NCBI GenBank assembly: GCA_964036665.1
Contig: OZ038526.1
Location: forward strand, 22,382,001 to 22,446,000
Direction: 5' to 3'
Source: Gordius sp. MW1
Lineage: Eukaryota > Nematomorpha > Gordioida > Gordea > Gordiidae
DNA: 64,000 nt
This document shows, in pieces, positions 13,362-60,938 of the stretch. The notes under the pieces were generated by a model. It made no database searches and was not told where the DNA came from. It saw only the letters and a list, made by a program, of their open reading frames with translations. Made by a program: the position numbers and the translations under genes. How positions within the stretch are numbered: position 1 is the first letter of the stretch; each line of letters starts with the position of its first letter.

Positions 13362-13506
13362 CAGTGGCGTAGCTAGCCTTTTTGCCTTGGGGGGCTGAGC
13401 GGGTCAAGCCACGGGGGGGGGGACAAAAAAAATTTTAACTACAAAAACTTAAAAATTAAAAAATGTTTTGCCCCCCCCCAATCCAAAACCTGGATATGAC
13501 CATGGG
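13362..13506. mobile_element. MITE, GGGCGTAGCCAG family, degraded ends
   Basis: It begins AGTGGCGTAGCTAG, has long G and C runs, and ends CCTGGATATGACCATGGG. It resembles the copy at 61132-61259. Confidence 0.6.
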
Positions 13507-13790
13507 TCAAGCGTATAGTTGTTATTGCTAAGTAGCTTCAACTAAAAACGCGAGCACGAACACTAGCTGTTTAATAAGCTAGTTTAGCACAATGAGTGCT
13601 AGCTGTTCGGTGCAATAGTTTTAACAGTAGCATTTAAAAATGCTCGAGAGGTTAGTCGAAGCAGCCAAATCTGTTATAAAATTTAGCAGAAGCTCGAGCA
13701 GTAAATTCGAGCAGATAGTAGATTGAATTGCTATTTGCTATAATTAAAATTTTAATCATATTTTATATCATAAATAAATTAAGAACTTTG

Positions 13791-14106
13791 CCCTCCCCCC
13801 TTATTTTTTACCCTCTTTCTCACCCGGGGGGAGAAGTGATTTCCTACCCCCCCCCCTTATTTTTACTCTCTTTCTTACCAGGGGGAAAGGGGGTGATTTC
13901 CCCCCCCCCGTATTTTTTACTCTTTTTCTTACCAGGGGGAGGGGGTGAATTGGCCCCCCCCCTTATTTTTTACTCTCTTTCTTACCAGGGGGGAGGGGGG
14001 TGAATTGCCCCCCCCCTTTTTTTACCCCCCTTATTTTTTACCCTCTTTCTGACCAGGGGGAAGGGGTCATTTGCCCCCCCCCCTTATTTTTTACTCTCTT
14101 TCTAAT
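13791..14106. repeat. Minisatellite array, left arm of the foldback element
   Basis: About five units of roughly 58-65 bp: TTATTTTTTACTCTCTTTCT, then ACCAGGGGG-type sequence, GGTGAATTGCC or TGATTTCC, and a C-run. The array continues after the hAT insertion, at 15198-15380. Confidence 0.8.
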
Positions 14107-15197
14107 TAGAGGCCTGCATCCTAAGCTCGCCCCGCAGGCCGTGCCTAAAATAGAGCAATAAAAAAGTGCGGGCCGGGCCTGGGTTTTGATAAGTGAAAAA
14201 ATCTGAATTTATTTAACTTTTTACTATAATTTTATTATAGAAACAAAAAATTAATAAAAATCTGGTGGAATTTAAAAATCCTTATATTAAAAAGTTTGTA
14301 AATGATGTAGGATAAAATAATCAGTTTTTATCCGGCAAAGATTTAATAGAAAATGAAGGCTTTCCAAAAAAATATATCATGCTATTAACGTTCACCTTAT
14401 GAAATGGCAAGCTTCGCGTTAGAAGCGGATAAGACACCAACACTCAATATTACCCTTTTATATAATACCAAATTTGTTTCCATCTTCTACGTGTACTGTC
14501 TTAGAGATCTATTAATTGAAGTCAAGAGCCAAAACTCCTAATTTTAAAGTTAAATATCGATATTTATCATAAAATATCACCTTTTTTGTTCCTAAGTTTC
14601 GCACGTTAAAAATGCTACCCGATGAAAGTAGCTTCGTAAAAACTACATTAAAAGAATTTTTAAAAATGTATATCTCTGTTTGGGAAGATGATGAAACGGG
14701 AAAGCTTCAAAATTTCAACTAAGTTGATACTTATCTTAAATTAAATCTAAAACCTAAAGATGTAGATGTAATAATATGGTGAAAAGAACACCACCACCAA
14801 CTTACGCTACCACTACCAAACTTAACAAAATTAGCTATTCAGTTTTTGTTAATTCCAGCCACTAGTGCTACGAGTGAATGCACATTCAATAAGGCAAGTC
14901 GCCTTAAAGAGCCGAGAAGAACGAAATTATTGCCTGATAGAACTGATAGTCTCATATTTTTAAATCACAATATAGCATATAATTTTTGATTAAAACCGCT
15001 TTATGTTATATTTTTTTAAAAATACAATTATTTTTATACTAATAAATAATTTTAAACAACGTAGATTTTTTTTACTCGTGCGGGCCAGATGCGGCGCAAT
15101 TTGTGCGTTTTTTTTGCGGGCCGAGTGCGGGCCAAAAAAATAATATTTGTGTGGGGGCCGGGCCTGAACCTAAAATTTCGGCCCATGCAGACCTCTA
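14107..15197 (+). mobile_element. hAT transposon remnant
   Basis: The ends TAGAGGCCTGCAT and ATGCAGACCTCTA are inverted repeats typical of hAT elements. GC-rich subterminal blocks with GCGGGCCGGGCCTG-like sequence lie just inside both ends (14130-14185, 15080-15165). The decayed transposase is described separately. It interrupts the minisatellite of the foldback element, so it is younger than that element. I could not find an exact 8-bp target duplication. Confidence 0.8.
14612..14989 (+). pseudogene. hAT transposase, C-terminal dimerisation region, decayed
   Basis: The conserved hAT C-terminal block is clear: LAIQFLLIPATSATSECTF, then NKASRLKEPRRTKLL and LIFLNHNI. It corresponds to the usual L-x-IPATSxxSER-x-FS-x-AG region and the following RR-x-x-L and FLN motifs. 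Here ER is EC and AG is AS. Upstream are YISVWEDDETG and stop codons (around 14722 and 14780), and no N-terminal zinc finger or catalytic domain could be read. It is a broken copy and cannot make active transposase. Confidence 0.8.
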
Positions 15198-16339
15198 GGG
15201 TGAATTGCCCCCCCCCCTTTTTACTACCCTCTTTCACACCCAGGGGGGAGGGTGATTTGCCCCCCCCCCTATTTTTTACTCTCTTACACCAGGGGGGAGG
15301 GACTGTGATTTGATCCCCCCCCTTTTTTAAAACCCTCTTTCTCATCCGGTAGGGGGTGTGATTTGCCCCCCACCCTTATTTTCTTCTTTTACCTGGCCCC
15401 GGGTGAGAAAGAGAGTAAAAAATAAGGGGGGAGGGCAAATCACCCCCTTCCCCCTGGTAAGAAATAGAATAATAAATAAGGGGATGGGGCAAATCACCCC
15501 CCTCCCCCCCCCCCCCCGGGTGAGAAAGAGGGTATAAAATAGGGGAAGGAGCAAATCACTCCCTTCCCCCCTGGTAAGAAAGACTGTAAAAAATAAGGGG
15601 GGGGGGGGCAAATCACTTCTCCCCCCGGGTGAGAAAGAGGGTAAAAAATAAGGGGGAGGGCAATGTTCTTAATTTATTTATCTATGTATATAAAAAAATC
15701 TAAGTCCCTTATTTTTGAACGCTAATAACTTTTAGAGTTCTCAACCGATTGCCACCAAATTTGGCCAGATTATTGCCTTAGCATTGTAGATGGTTTATAG
15801 ATACTTTTTATCAACCTGCGACAGCGGGAACCCAGTTTTTTGGTAGTCTATGCTGCCATCTAGCAGAATATTTATACTACATTTTTTGTACTTATTTATC
15901 GTTATAATGCTACTTATTGTCTTAAACTTTTTTCCACTATTGGTTTGTCATTTGTGTCTCAATTTTTTACTCAACTACGGCCGTTTTTTCCACAATATAT
16001 AAAGCTGTAACAAATAAATATTATCGGTACCGTAAAACATCACCATTTTCTTAAATAAATATAACGCTCGCTTCCCACGTTTCGTGCTTTTTCGCTATTT
16101 TTATGAAGTTCGGTAATTAATTATATATAACTACCAAAGATTCACATATCTATATATATAAAAATCTAAGTCCCTTTTTTTGAACGCTCATAACTTTTAG
16201 AGTTCTCAACCGATTGCCACCAAATTTGGCCAGATTTGCCTTAACTTTGTAGATGGTTTATATATCCTTTTTATCGACCTGCGACAGCATTAACCCTGTT
16301 TTTTGGTAGTCTTTACCGCACTCTAGCTGATTATTTATA

Positions 16340-16682
16340 CCTGACTGGACCTTTCACGGGGAAAGATATCTTCATACCAAGGATCCCTTTAATTCCAACA
16401 GATATGCCCTTTGAATTTAAAAGATTGCAATTTCCTTTCAAACTCGCATTTGCTATAACCATTAACAAAGCTCAAGGCCAGTCCCTTGCAATTTGTGGAT
16501 CAATTTAGAAACAGATTGTTTCGCACATGGACAATCATATGTTGCATGTTCGCGCGTGGGCAATCAACTTAATCTCTATATCTACCCAGAAAAGAACATT
16601 ACCCAAAATATTGTCTACCCCAAGCATTTTAGAAATTTCTTCCTTTCTAACCCCGCGTTCGTGATGACGCGCGAAGCGAAGT
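16340..16682 (+). pseudogene. Helitron helicase, C-terminal end, frameshifted
   Basis: The reading gives TGPFTGKDIFIPRIPLIP, then PFEFKRLQFPFKLAFA and INKAQGQSLAICG. After a frameshift near 16490 it continues LETDCFAHGQSYVACSRVG and NIVYPKHF. These are the C-terminal motifs of the Pif1-like helicase of animal Helitrons (INKAQGQ, YVACSRVG). The Rep nuclease and most of the helicase are missing. It follows the Helitron 5' end by under 200 bp, so this copy is an internal-deletion derivative. Confidence 0.85.
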
Positions 16683-17085
16683 GAATTTTTGTGCTAATTT
16701 ATCAAACATTTCACTATTTTTCTTAATATCTTATATTCATCGTGAATTTTATCATATATCAGGAAAATAAAGATTGTAAATATGAGGTGTTCATAGTGAT
16801 ACCGCAGACGATTATTTTCGCCCGCGGCAAAAAGCAAGGTACAAATCATTTTTTACTTTTCGCGCAATGGTTAAAAAATTATTTTCGTTCGCTTTTTGCC
16901 GCTGGCGAAAATAATCGTCTGCGGTTTCACTATGAACCCCTCATATTTACAATTGTTATTTTCGTGATATATAATAAAATTCACGATGAATATAAGATAT
17001 TAAGAAAAATAATGAAAAGTTTGATAAATTAGCACAAAAATTCACTTCGCTTTTTTTCGCTTCGCGCGTCATCACGAACGCGCGC
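16651..17085. repeat. Palindrome with about 190-bp arms around the Helitron helicase end
   Basis: From 16651 (CGCGTTCGTGATGACGCGC) to about 16838 the sequence recurs inverted at about 16889-17085, ending GCGCGTCATCACGAACGCG. Shared inner blocks include CCGCAGACGATTATTTTCGC and TCATCGTGAATTTTAT. The left arm includes the last codons of the helicase, so the arm includes former coding sequence. The spacer is about 50 bp. Confidence 0.85.
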
Positions 17086-17849
17086 GGCCTAAGGCAGAAG
17101 TTAAGCTGCGAAGCATCTCTTACCCGAACCTACAGCCATCTTTATAACGCCTCACTACTTTTCTGCGTGAATAATTAATGTTAGTGTTATTTCTATTTAT
17201 CCACTCATAAATTTTAGCAATTACCATTAAAGCCCATTGATTTTACTCGCGTACACCTTTTAAATTCTATAATTTTATATTTCTTTTAGCATTTCTCCCC
17301 TTTTTATTACGCCAGAGTATTATAACTAAATTTGACTAGACATTTACAAGAAGCTATAATACTCTACGTGTATTACCTTATTCTTCATAAGACCTATAAT
17401 TGATTTACCCTTTATCCATCAACTTTCTCTTGCAGGTTTTATTTTACTATTTACATCATTTTTTACATTATACTTTCAGCCAAAATCTTCATACAGCTCT
17501 TTATTACCCATACATTATTATAAGCTTTTTATATTTTAATGCCTAAATACTCTTATGAATTATTAATAAATATTTTATATCGCTCTTAAATAAATATTAT
17601 GGATATTTATTTGCATTAGCATTCGGACCTTTCACAATATAAATTAATTCATATATGACCACATTTTAGATATATTAATAGGTTATACTTATTTAACCAC
17701 TTAAGGGCTGAGTCATAGCAACGCTTGGCCGGGCACAGCTATTGATATATAATATGATTAAAATTTTAATTATAGCAAATAGCATTTCAATCTACTATCT
17801 GCTCGAATTTACTGCTCGAGCTTCTGCTAAATTTTTTAACAGATTTGGC

Positions 17850-26395: not shown

Positions 26396-29300
26396 CCTTC
26401 TTTATCGTGTTGAAAATCCCACAGACGTGGGGTAAGTTTTTAGCAGCCTCTTCCATCTGAGTCGCGTACATGCCATGCCAATTTCCATCTGTTTGACGTC
26501 CATATCCTTTTCGACCAGTCGTTTCCAGGTGGCACGTGGTCTGCCCCTTCCTCTTTTTCCAGGCACGTCCATCTCCAGCGTTCGCCGTGTGACATCGTCC
26601 TCGTCTCTTCGTAATACATGGCCGTACCACCGCAGTCGATTTTCTTATAAGAAGTCCTTCGTCGCTTGTATACCCATCTTTGTCATCAAGGATTCGTTCG
26701 TCATGCGATCCAGCTTGGTGTAGCCTAAGCTCCATCGCACCATTCTCATTTCCGTGGCTTGCAAGAGTTTCTCCTCCGCGGTGGTTACAGCCCATGTTTC
26801 GCTTCCGTAAAGCAAGACCGGTCGCACGATGGTTTTGTACGCTTTGCTTTTCAACCAAATTGGTATCTTTTTGTCACACATGACACCGGAGATGCTGCGC
26901 CACTTGAGCCATGCTTTCTTGATCCGAGAATGGACTTCGGCGGTACATCCTCCCTCTTGATGTAATAGCGAGCCAAGATATGTGAACTTATCAACCTCCG
27001 TGTACATTGGACCGTCATTTTTGTGCATTTGCGGACTACCTACCATCATTGCATGTAAACCGTTTTCTTCTCGCTGACTTTTAGACCGAATTCCGAAAAA
27101 CGTTCTGACCATTTTTTCGCCTGATGAAAAACCCCTTCTCTTGTTTCATCGCATAGGACAATATCATCGGCATATAGCATAGTCCAAGGGGCTGGCTTGT
27201 GCAAGTCCTTTGTTATTGTATCCATAATTAGATTAAACAAGAATGGGCTTAACGCTGACCCTTGATGTAGTCCAATCATTATTCGGAAGGGTTTCGTTTC
27301 TCCTACGGTAGTCCTGACAGATGCAACCGCGCCATTATACATTTCCTTGATAAGTCGAACATATACTTCGGGTATATTTCTGGCTCTAAGGGACCACCAT
27401 ATTAAGTCTCTCGGAACCGTATCGTAGGCCTTTTCTAAATCGATGAAGACCATGTGTAGGTTCTTTCTTATGTCGCCATATTTTTCCATCGTCTGCTTCA
27501 ACGCAAAGATTGGATCCATCGTTGATTTACCGGCCACAAATCCAAACTGATTGGGCGAGAGACAAACTTCGTCATTGAGCCTTTTCACTAGCACCCTTTC
27601 TAGTAGTTTTAGTGAGTGGCAGGTCAACTTGATACCTCTAAAGTTGCCACATTCCTGCGCGTCTCCTTTGCCTTTGTATATGGGTATGATCGTACTTTCC
27701 CTCCATTGGTCAGGGATACGACTCTCATACATAGCGTTAAATAGGCCTGTCATTATGTCGATTCCTTCTCCTTTGCACCCAAGCCAAGCTTCGATCGGTA
27801 AATCATCGGTACCTAGCGCTTTCCCTTTCCGCATCTTCGTTAGTTGCGCTCCTACTTCATAAGCCTGCAATGGTAAAACCAAGTTCGAGTTCGGTTCCAC
27901 CCTCTCTAGCGGTCTTCTATCATTTGTTTTGTTCATCATAATCTTTCCATCTTTTGATGACTTCCTTCGGTTTGCACAACGTTCGTCCCTCTTCGCTTTT
28001 AATGACTTTCAGTGTCCCGACATCTCGACTTTTTTCTCCCTGATCTTTGCGAGTTTATACATGACTATGTCGCCGCCCTTGGCATCGAGCTTGTTTGCCA
28101 TATCGGTGTAAGCCTCGTTCTTCGCTATCGCAACCGCTATCTTAGCTTTGCGTTTCGCTTCACGATATGCCACGTAGTCTTCTCCTTTCTTCGTTTTGTA
28201 CCATCGTAGGTACAACGCCTTCTTTTCTTCTATAGCCTCTTTGACCGAGTCATTCCACCACCATAGTTTACGCTTGTGAGCTCTGCCGCCCTTAGTTCGT
28301 CCCAAGATTTGAAAGGCCGTTTCCTTTAAAACATTTGCAACGGTGTCCCACCTTTTGTTAATGTCGCCCCCCAAGCCTGCAACCTTCAAGAGCGGAGTTG
28401 CTCGAGCGTGAAACATTTCATTTGCGCGATCATCCTTAAGCTTTTCGTACTTTGTACTTGGTGTGTAGACTTTTCTCCTTTCGGGAAAAATCTTTCTTGC
28501 TATATCGAGGACAACTGGCCGATGTTGCTTGGCGATTTCTTCCCCCGGTATAACCTTGCAATCTTTAACTTGCCACAAATTTTTGCGCTTCACTAGGATG
28601 TAGTCGACCTGTGTAAGGTGATCCCCACTGCTGTACGTCGCTAAATGTTATGTACGCTTCTGAAAGAAGGTATTCACAATGCCATATCGTAAGCTTGCGC
28701 CATCTGTAGTAACTTCTCTCCCTCTTTATTCTTCAACCCATAGCCATGCCCGCCGTGATTTCGTTCGTACACGCCCCTTTCTTTCCCAACGTGCCCATTA
28801 AAGTCTGCTCCGATGATGAGATTCTCGTCAGGCTTCGCGTAGCGTATTTCTTTTCGAGCTTTTCATAGAATTCGTCCTTCTCATTTTCGGAACATCCAAC
28901 CTGGGGCGAATACGCACAAATAACATTGACAAGGCCGCCTTGATCCGCCAGCTTTATGCACATCAATCTATCCGAGCATCGTTTGACTTCGACTACCTTG
29001 TCCTTAAAGGAATCGCTAAGCACTATACCGACCCCGTTCTTCCGTGATGGGGAACCCGAGTAGTATAGCTTGTAACCATCTCCTAGCTCCCTGGCTTTTG
29101 TTCCATGCCACCGCGTTTCTTGTAGACACGCTATGTGTATCCTTCGCCTTTTTAGCATCTGCGCAACCTCGATGCTCTTCCCCGTCAGCGTGCCCACATT
29201 CCAGCAGGCCACTCTTGTCCGTTCGACAACTAGATTCCTTAATCGCCTTCGTTGTGAGTGAGGCGGTAACCCTTGTATACTTTTCACATTGCACGGGCGG

Positions 29301-32996: not shown

Positions 32997-34250
32997 AGTT
33001 GAGGAAAAAGTTCGTAGAGTTTTTATCAAAGTCTTTTATTTAACGATTATTTATTGTTATAACAATAACTTATTCAATAATATATTCGCCGTTGCTGTTT
33101 ACGACCTCCTCCCACCTTTTGACCAATTTTTCGATGCCATTACGCCAAAAATCGACCGGTCTGGTATCGAAGAATTTGTTGAGCCAGTTTTTAAGGCCCT
33201 CTACATTGTCCAAGGTAACGCCCCTCATATGGTTCGAGAGAGAGCGGAAAAGATGGTAATCCGTCGGTGCAAGGTCCGGAGAATATAATAAATGCTGAAG
33301 GACCTCTCATTCGAGCTCTTGGAGAGCGGCTTTTACAACTTGAGCAACATGGGGCCTTGCGTTGTCGTGAAGGAGTATGGTCCGGCCTTGTCGATGGGGT
33401 CTTTTGAGTCGAATAGCCTCATTCACGCGGGGTAGCTGGGATATATAGAGCTCCTTGTTGACAGTGACATTCCTTTCCAGAATTTCCTTATGCAGAATGC
33501 CCTCCCAGTCCCATCAAACGCAGATCATGGTCTTTTATGGATGGAGGTCAGGCTTGACACTCGGCTTTGGAGTCGCTCCAGGAGCCACCCACTCCTTTTC
33601 TTGCTTCAAATTACAAACACCATTCCCATCTCCCGTGACGATTCGGTACAAAAAGCGCTGTTTTTGACCGCGGGTTGCTCGATGACGGGCGAGATGTTGA
33701 GAAGCAATTTGAGGGCGATTTTCATTGTGGCTTTCGTCAAGCTCGGGGCAAATCCCATCGAATGAAGATGATTTAGGATGGTTTTCTGATCGAACTTCAT
33801 TATTTCCGCCAATTCACGACTTGTTTGGCGACCGTCCTCCTTCAAAAGTGCTCTGAGACACTCCTCGTCGAATTCCGAGGGTCTTCCGCTACAAGGCTTG
33901 TCAGCGATGTCAAAATCGCCATTTTTGAACATTGCGAACCATTTTTGTGCTGTAGACTCAACTATGACACCTTCTCCGTCTACTTTACAAATGTCTCGGG
34001 GTGTTTCAGCAGCGTTTTGACCACGATAAAAAGCGAAGAATAGCAGGTGTCAAAAATGTTGATTTTTACCGTTTGGATACTCCCTTTTGACGTCGCGAAA
34101 GTTATAAAAAATGAATTTCTTAACGATTGGCACAGTTTTGTAGAGGGGAAAGAGTTCTACTTAATGAATATTATATAATTCATCCGAAGCAAAAAATCGA
34201 TAAAATAATGCAACATGTGTTGCACCCTACCGAACTTTCTCCTCAACCCA
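32997..34250 (-). mobile_element. mariner transposon, inactivated
   Basis: Inverted ends GTTGAGGAAAAAGTTCG (32998-33014) and CGAACTTTCTCCTCAAC (34231-34247) are bordered by TA dinucleotides at 32995-32996 and 34251-34252. The length, about 1.25 kb, is normal for mariner. The transposase is on the minus strand. The N-terminal helix-turn-helix part has SGRPSEFDEE and GRQTSRELAEIM. The catalytic part has VTGD, EWVAPG, HDNARPHVAQV and YSPDLAPTDYHLF, matching the DD34D triad positions. A frameshift after VTGD and a stop replacing Trp in the WWDW motif inactivate it. Confidence 0.92.
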
Positions 34251-59943: not shown

Positions 59944-60143
59944 TCAAGAAACACTGGCATAGAAAAACACAGATCCATCTCTAAGTAATTTACCACTAAA
60001 TCAGGTGGCCAAATTCGCAAGCTCTCAAAATAACTTTTCGGTCAATCAAATGTTATACATATAAAACGTCTTAAATTTTATAATTTTTTAACCTTATAAT
60101 TTTTGTCATTATTTCCTAAAGCAGTAATCACAAATTTTTAACT

Positions 60144-60938
60144 ATGGAAGTGAAAAATGTGTATAATGAGTTCTCTAAAAAAGTTGTTTATTTAAATAAA
60201 CCTGACAAAGTACCCTTCCAATTTTTGGGAGGTTTATTAAATGGAAAAGTTCCCAATATGAAAAGTTTCATACCAGCAAACAAATTGAATATAAAAGTGC
60301 CCATTAAACATCCTCATGATTCAGCATTCAAAAATACTCATAGATATATGTTTACATTTTCTCTAAAGGAAAAATTTATGTTGTCCTTTGGGTTAATGAT
60401 ATTCTCAATACTATGCTTGGGACTTTCAATTATGTACATTCCAGTTATTTTAATTAAAGCAAGAAAATTTGCATTACTTTATTCTCTGAGTTCATTTTCT
60501 GGTATGAGTGGAATTATGATACTGGTATATGGCATTAAAGTTGATGTGAAATTTAATATTTTATCATTTTCAATGTTCAAAAATCAATATTACCCTGTGC
60601 CTCAACAAGAAAATGATAATACTGATTTAGTAAATAACTCCCCAACTGAGACATCATCAAGCCTATCAAAAAACAAATATTTCTATAACATGTTAATATA
60701 TCTTATTTCAAGTTTTTTTACTATTTATTTTGCCCTTTGGTGGAAAAATGTGATATTGACAATTCTATTTTGTTTTATTCAATTTAGCTGTATAATAATA
60801 ATTTTGATTAAAATGATCCCTGGGGGTGGTAAAAGTTTTGCACTATTAAAAAGAATAGTTACATATTCTATAACAAAAAATCTTTCAAACATGTTTGCAG
60901 AAGAAAAATCAAAACCTTATAATTTGTTACCAGTATAA
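60144..60938 (+). CDS. SFT2-family vesicle transport membrane protein
   Basis: Golgi/endosome multi-pass protein of the SFT2 (SFT2D) family, implicated in retrograde vesicle fusion with the Golgi. One uninterrupted 264-codon frame. After a 75-residue polar N-terminus, four hydrophobic segments lie at about 78-101, 109-130, 182-200 and 203-224. Signatures are KEKFMLSFGLMIFSILCLGL, ARKFALLYSLSSFSGMSG, YFALWWKNVILTILFC and IPGGGKSF, matching the order F-x-x-G..., KFA-x-x-Y-x-x-x, A-x-WW and IPGG of the family. The loop between segments 2 and 3 is about 50 residues and Asn/Ser/Thr-rich, longer than usual. The start ATG follows stops upstream. Two AATAAA signals at 60988 and 60995 suit the 3' end. 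The absence of introns could mean retroposition or intron loss; the frame is intact, so it is probably a working gene. Confidence 0.82.
   Translation: MEVKNVYNEFSKKVVYLNKPDKVPFQFLGGLLNGKVPNMKSFIPANKLNIKVPIKHPHDSAFKNTHRYMFTFSLKEKFMLSFGLMIFSILCLGLSIMYIPVILIKARKFALLYSLSSFSGMSGIMILVYGIKVDVKFNILSFSMFKNQYYPVPQQENDNTDLVNNSPTETSSSLSKNKYFYNMLIYLISSFFTIYFALWWKNVILTILFCFIQFSCIIIILIKMIPGGGKSFALLKRIVTYSITKNLSNMFAEEKSKPYNLLPV

Follow-up and report, generated by a model that had tools for sequence, protein, structure and literature searches.

The window analysed here is a 64,000-nucleotide stretch of the Gordius sp. MW1 genome (C8:22382001-22446000; 211.8 Mb in 12 contigs). C-numbers designate contigs, and L-numbers designate sampled genomic regions with arm or related matches. 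The window contains a foldback element, built of two opposed arms and tandem-repeat arrays, which by its sequence appears to be a truncated, twice-interrupted copy: its left end lies at 13514 and its right arm breaks off at 17849. The element is very probably a non-autonomous hAT-type foldback that is mobilised in trans by the hAT transposase of related larger elements. It is sequentially composed of the following parts.

13506..13513, no strand: left flank GTCAAGCG, the would-be left 8-bp target duplication, its position set by comparison with other copies
13514..13790, + strand: complete left arm with a TATAG-type end, 93.4% identical over 290 bp, from the first base on, to an entire arm in another copy
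13791..14106, + strand: left minisatellite array of C-first units (Tandem Repeats Finder (TRF) rows 13791-14023 and 13957-14091)
14107..15197, + strand: inserted hAT of another family, terminal inverted repeat TAGAGGCCTGCA, ends common to genomic copies, PF05699
15198..15396, + strand: remainder of the left array, as far as the switch in orientation (TRF 15200-15382; self-alignment)
15397..15665, - strand: right minisatellite array of inverted units (TRF 15397-15663; inverted match to 13770-14059)
15666..15681, - strand: innermost stretch of the right arm, to the left of the Helitron (15652-15681 is 93% identical to the arm of another copy over 30 bp)
15682..17742, + strand: inserted Helitron with a TC start, CTAT replacing the CTAG end, at an A/T site; ends read from sampled copies
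17743..17849, - strand: remaining right arm, truncated, with the outer ~150 bp gone; 97.2% identical to 13664-13770; other copies continue outward from here

In the self-alignment of the window, the inverted arms at 13664-13770 and 17743-17849 are 97.2% identical over 107 bp, and the arrays at 13770-14059 and 15397-15681 are mutually inverted with 80.7% identity over about 290 bp. Both arms carry C/G-rich tandem units, for which TRF calls periods of 53-68 bp and also one of 117 bp. An earlier note on this DNA had described opposed, near-identical arms with minisatellites, a hAT lying in one and a Helitron in the other, and the alignment agrees with it: both insertions are found within the element. 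Both are also later than the foldback, as the note had it, but the order of the hAT relative to the Helitron is not readable. The arms were further said to become continuous upon removal of the inserts. This holds for the Helitron, around which the arm flanks rejoin at an A/T site, but not for the hAT, whose junction is not clean. The ends proposed at 13664 and 17849 are superseded, as related copies reach ~150 bp further, to TAGAG/TATAG ends, and 17849 is the end of none of the 15 two-armed copies aligned. The window contains no second GTCAAGCG on either strand and no further arm match that would represent the lost outer right arm. The left side of the foldback is adjoined by a short element with G/C runs (CAGTGGCGTAGC..., 13364-13505), and comparable pieces turn up at further loci and within the middle part of the C4 element described below.

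The 127-bp left arm was used as a genome query and gave 41 matches from the best 40 of 603 first-look candidates. Twenty regions around arm matches were taken, and 15 two-armed copies were aligned. Self-alignments of 15 loci reveal the inverted-arm structure, with long arms built largely of tandem repeats. By eye, the arms of the 15 two-armed copies extend outward beyond the equivalents of 13664 and 17849 on 29 of 30 sides, the exception being the left side of L013. A few sides stop short of the tip, such as the right sides of L009 and L011. Most copies end in TAGAGTTGTTAAATTGCTAAC on one side and TATAGTTGTTAAATTGCTAAG on the other, and the end of the window copy at 13514 is of the TATAGTTGTTAAATTGCTAAG kind. 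The two ends, TAGAG... and TATAG..., differ mainly over the outer ~50 bp.

A scan for paired element ends in 87 sequences, overlapping ones removed, yielded 39 pairs. The 27 long pairs span 774-4340 bp; they are flanked by a perfect 8-bp duplication in 20 cases, by one with a single mismatch in four and by none in three, such that at least 7 of 8 positions match in 24/27. Uninterrupted copies bearing target duplications, for which the earlier note had suggested a search, are thereby present in the genome. The size of about 1 kb that it gave is typical, but the long pairs range up to more than four times that length. Such duplications bear on the identity of the element. A Helentron-type element (HINE) would have subterminal inverted repeats and internal tandem repeats, a general resemblance to the structure seen here; HINEs make no target duplication, however, and the 8-bp duplications leave this explanation next to no probability.

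The duplication length also favours hAT over Mutator. Mutator/Foldback elements make 9-bp duplications, and hAT is the better assignment because the duplications here are 8 bp. The foldback could instead be of Mutator or P type, as Tetris and Galileo are taken to be, with a transposase of another family. In favour of this, passages of PMC4079207 state that foldbacks mostly appear to be Mutator elements and that the duplications of Tetris measure 8-9 bp in its three complete copies, and passages of PMC4168063 give 7 or 8 bp for Galileo. We regard it as very unlikely, given that the duplications are 8 bp, that the ends start with TAGAG/TATAG and that elements with the same arms hold hAT transposase sequence, no search aimed at Mutator (Mutator-like element, MULE) or P transposase having been made.

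The class is abundant, contrary to its earlier description as uncommon. Genome-wide, a 17-base end has 714 exact matches (reversed control, 1), a 40-mer of the arm 212 matches with up to 3 mismatches (reversed control, 0), a 21-base TATAG end 115 (control, 0) and the arm/array junction 632 with up to 2 mismatches (reversed control, 0). We infer ~100 to 300 copies of the window class from these counts, because an intact element has two arms.

The orientation of array units was counted in 24 elements, with L054, L065 and L088 left out, and changes exactly once in 24/24, which places them in the foldback group with long inverted tandem-repeat arms. An intact copy would read, in order, 8-bp duplication, ~280-330-bp arm, forward units, one switch, inverted units, inverted arm and 8-bp duplication. 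The two halves of the array are unequal in unit number in these elements, and their unit numbers are uncorrelated (r = -0.04, with a motif that undercounts units). Inspected by eye, the interiors of 13 copies and of L089 consist of arrays; they were not searched for domains. The copies seen of the window class lack coding sequence, as the earlier note had stated for the element, but a sister class with a 128-bp unit has members with hAT transposase sequence. The window class shows no transposase of its own by which to assign it to hAT; it appears to be non-autonomous and may belong there nonetheless. Array units tested for unusual DNA folding in three stretches gave no consistent effect (z = -0.52, 0.18 and -2.05). 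L065, L087 and L020 contain other insertions within arms or arrays, and the foldback flank in L087 includes a brief run of TTAGGG-like repeats (L087:97-150).

The arms of an element resemble each other slightly more than they resemble those of other elements. Over all 29 elements, identity is 87.7% within and 85.7% between elements, with 35/20,000 shuffles equal or above, and the own partner is the most similar right arm in 3/29. In a reduced set, from which 6/29 elements were dropped (L054, L065, L077, L020, L025 and the window copy) and in which 196 inner columns were kept, the values are 95.8% within and 93.8% between (0/20,000 shuffles), and the own partner is best for 14/46 arms. Gene conversion would account for this pattern, and so would subfamily descent. 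The arms contain CTCGAG about 2.1 times each, against 0.015 in mononucleotide shuffles; since all arms derive from one sequence, this counts as a single observation. The arm has no match among phage records, as expected for a eukaryote. Inverted arms can also be produced by assembly or by long-read foldback artefacts, which are known (PMC12870357). Here, many copies have differing flanks and perfect target duplications, in each of 23 elements the two arms diverge from one another by 1-10%, and the array halves are unequal, so that an artefactual origin of the arms can practically be dismissed.

A miniature inverted-repeat transposable element (MITE) of ~200 bp has the same ends as the foldback and corresponds to most of the foldback arm. 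The 12 MITE pairs measure 178-203 bp, and 8/12 have a perfect 8-bp duplication; the MITE is 77.7% identical to window 13514-13648 over 139 bp. L054, which has a perfect duplication, is 84% identical to the MITE over 147 bp and 69-75% identical to the arms, and contains only a trace of the array. By these values L054 appears to be an intermediate between MITE and foldback. The foldback could then be a composite of two inverted MITEs that captured the DNA between them, in which case the hAT link would be unchanged and the foldback would derive from MITEs, not from a palindrome. The homology of the MITE to most of one arm and the intermediate position of L054 argue for this origin, but the inner MITE terminus is not clearly kept in the arm. 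Together with the extent of the C4 mirror described below, this makes the composite origin possible but rather unlikely.

The sister class links the arms to a transposase. L088 (C1, 2465 bp, duplication 7/8) has the same arms as the window class and a 128-bp unit in its array; the unit has 827 matches in the genome with up to 3 mismatches. Arms of the class with C/G arrays are 91% identical to those of the 128-bp class and 94% identical among themselves. Region L090 was chosen where places of the 128-bp unit and of PF05699 coincide on contig C4. Its hAT frames match PF05699 above the cut-off (E = 2.1e-20) and PF14372 just below it (E = 6.1e-6, 26.8 bits against a cut-off of 27). The element there spans C4:10714836-10726360 (11,525 bp), ends in TAGTG and TATAG, and is flanked on both sides by the perfect 8-bp duplication CATGAAAG. 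Remnants of the transposase are present in L088 (91% over 570 bp) and L084 (96% over 423 bp and 94% over 243 bp). The interval C1:2648862-2652880 has a perfect duplication as well (AGGGTGGT).

The C4 element contains two transposase copies in opposite orientation. Genome searches with P0001 and P0003, query proteins from its (+) copy, located a second, inverted copy 4.6 kb away, which is 90% identical to P0001 and 98% identical to P0003. The DNA mirrors itself with 95% identity over 437 bp at the ends and 96% over 108 bp at the inner edge. As sampled, the mirror reaches 10718187 and 10722777, i.e. at least 3.3 kb, and ~1.8 kb of the gene, from P0001 to P0003, lies within both arms. Further in, the mirror resumes for another 100 bp at 97%, which suggests an insertion in the right half. 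A sample of the middle (10719900-10721100) otherwise shows no long palindrome and resembles other repeats. This mirror extends into the gene, which an origin from two MITEs would not need. Among the listed P0003 loci with at least 80% identity, by eye at least 7/15 lie within 3 kb of an arm, an end or a 128-bp unit. By contig, these are at least 7/10 on C1-C7 and 0/5 on C8 among the matches listed, C8 being hardly covered.

These data argue for a foldback of the hAT superfamily. The 8-bp duplications and the presence of transposase sequence inside elements with the same ends (the C4 element, and remnants in L088 and L084) both agree with it. The hAT end consensus is of the kind TAGAG/CAGNG, to which TAGAG fits and TATAG matches only loosely. 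Mobilisation in trans by a hAT transposase would be the simplest account, because the ends and arms are shared and a complete sister element has the hAT gene. The transposase of larger relatives most likely recognises the TAGAG/TATAG ends and moves the foldback by cut and paste, and the asymmetry of the ends over the outer ~50 bp may play the part of the asymmetrically arranged subterminal repeats in Hermes. The best candidate source is the 11.5-kb C4 element bearing the same arms. It would be largely a palindrome, each half composed of an arm, a 128-bp minisatellite and an inverted transposase copy with 3' ends outward, and the halves would surround a middle filled with other repeats. The palindrome may have arisen by foldback-priming repair or by two inverted copies acting jointly. 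The source would be, or would have been, active, and formation of the palindrome would have preceded loss of the gene.

Several points weigh against this interpretation. No transposition was observed, and movement of the window class is deduced. Nothing equivalent to the C/G array was seen in the elements that bear transposase, and cross-mobilisation therefore rests on the shared arms and ends. Reading of the C4 element was confined to its ends, one of the gene copies, a part of the middle and a single inner edge, and on the left the stretch from end to gene is not covered at the DNA level. The gene was nowhere seen intact: the (+) copy consists of separate open pieces of 313, 146 and 103 amino acids, and three stops fall within two pieces of the (-) P0001 matches. 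For the 313-residue piece, neither Pfam (E 0.01) nor PDB (E 0.1) gave a match. The duplication is missing in 3/27 long pairs (L018, L067 and L081), of which L067 is probably no element. L067 (C1:14814528), a 3616-bp pair, had been considered as an autonomous copy and was rejected, as its listed open reading frames of at least 60 amino acids are not hAT-like by eye, no domain search having been made, and it has no duplication.

A broader proposal can be put forward tentatively, with the balance of probability somewhat against it. A hAT lineage may propagate as palindromes, the mobile unit being an inverted transposon pair with two divergent genes and with ends kept different only over the outer ~50 bp; loss or replacement of the interior would yield minisatellite foldbacks and MITEs, and the arms may give rise to a silencing hairpin RNA. 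The arrangement of P0001 relatives bears on this proposal. The best 127 of 444 candidates were scored and gave 110 merged copies, among which 16 neighbour pairs lie within 8 kb. Pairs less than 5 kb apart are on opposite strands in 11/11 cases and divergent in 9/11, or on opposite strands in 8/8 when four similar C3 pairs are counted once; at 5-8 kb, 1/5 pairs are on opposite strands. The test was devised after the data had been seen, and same-strand fragments less than 1 kb apart were merged, which would conceal direct tandem copies. The four similar pairs on C3 (C3:11640783-11686983) consist of divergent transposase relatives with 54-57% identity to P0001 at a spacing of ~13-15 kb.

The hAT inserted in the window copy is of another family. 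One genomic copy aligns over query positions 48-1138, exactly the ends at 14107 and 15197, and 29/37 other matches that reach the right end terminate at 1138-1140. A remnant of the dimerisation domain lies at 14783-14986 (PF05699, E = 9.4e-11). The flanks TTTCTAAT and GGGTGAAT form no duplication, and by eye part of one array unit is lost at the junction. As a driver of the foldback, this hAT was rejected; it is 37% identical to P0003 over 41 residues. Another TAGAGGCCTGCA-type hAT forms an independent insertion in a foldback array on C7 (L087:1078-2227), with a 6-bp CCATCT junction repeat, not an 8-bp one. This insertion explains the arm-adjacent hAT domain in L087, which is thus a foldback with an inserted hAT and was rejected as an autonomous copy.

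The Helitron label is based on its ends, the A/T insertion and what we take to be a PIF1-like fragment in the window copy; two of its frames gave no match in Pfam. At the right end, two other sampled copies have GCACAGCTAG followed by T and a third has CCAG followed by T, at the place of CTAT in the window. At the start, the L095 copy begins with TCTATATATA after A. BLAST matches begin between query 27 and 48, on either side of position 43, with the exception of one at 3 (L095), and run 6-48 bases beyond the right end into A/T-rich flank in 40/40 other rows; these extents show a Helitron family, not sharp ends. A second Helitron-like 5' start at 16149-16176 suggests a truncated copy joined to another. 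A 429-bp inverted repeat of 87% identity at 16654-17082, also inside the Helitron, is perhaps a palindromic MITE. Helitrons occupy the A/T-rich hinge between arm and array at window 15682, in L021 near 2140 and in L095 (C8:34531700-34532060). The start in L095 lies ~8 bp from the insertion point in the window, so the two are separate insertions, and Helitrons may insert preferentially in this hinge.

Elsewhere in the window are a Got1/Sft2-like gene fragment at 60120-60935 (E = 9.3e-13), a reverse transcriptase (RVT_1) at 27049-28008 on the - strand (E = 1.3e-33) and a Mos1-type helix-turn-helix at 33609-34049 on the - strand (E = 1.2e-12).

Foldback arms made of tandem repeats are also known from Drosophila FB and sea-urchin TU elements. 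Hermes is of conventional build, with a single gene and short terminal repeats. It shares a hAT transposase with the family described here, and passages of its description report subterminal repeats that are required in the ends and arranged asymmetrically between them (PMC10368747).

Galileo, of the P superfamily, has inverted repeats that grow longer through tandem repetition and through the recruitment of internal sequence, 69 bp of the open reading frame lying within the repeat of one copy, according to passages of PMC4168063. Long inverted repeats, tandem repeats and gene sequence recruited into an arm are common to both families. Unlike the P-type transposase of Galileo, that of the present family is a hAT, with ~1.8 kb of the gene in both C4 arms. 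In maize, Mu killer is a partial inverted duplication of a transposase gene (PMC3440606). It belongs to the Mutator family and is a silencing locus, whereas the C4 element has its own ends and a target duplication. One may speculate that hairpin RNA from the gene-bearing arms silences the family, which would parallel the action proposed for Mu killer on MuDR.

Tetris / DAIBAM of Drosophila virilis is a foldback with ~220-bp repeats for which passages of PMC4079207 suggest Mutator and report that an autonomous copy was not found. Like Tetris, the window class has tandem repeats within terminal inverted repeats, is apparently non-autonomous and shares its ends with a MITE. It differs in its repeats, which are 53-68 bp and C/G-rich or 128 bp long, and in the hAT transposase sequence of same-arm elements, where the Mutator assignment of Tetris is tentative. 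In the titles and abstract starts of the open-licence PMC literature searched, no hAT-type foldback or palindromic hAT is named. The architecture is thus a known one, that of Tetris and Galileo, and the hAT assignment would be what is new. Within a single genome, the same arms are shared by a foldback that is not autonomous, a MITE, an intermediate with an internal deletion and a palindrome that bears the transposase. This makes testable how foldbacks form and how a hAT transposase discriminates between ends that differ mainly over the outer ~50 bp. For the present foldback there is thereby a candidate source of the kind that was not found for Tetris.

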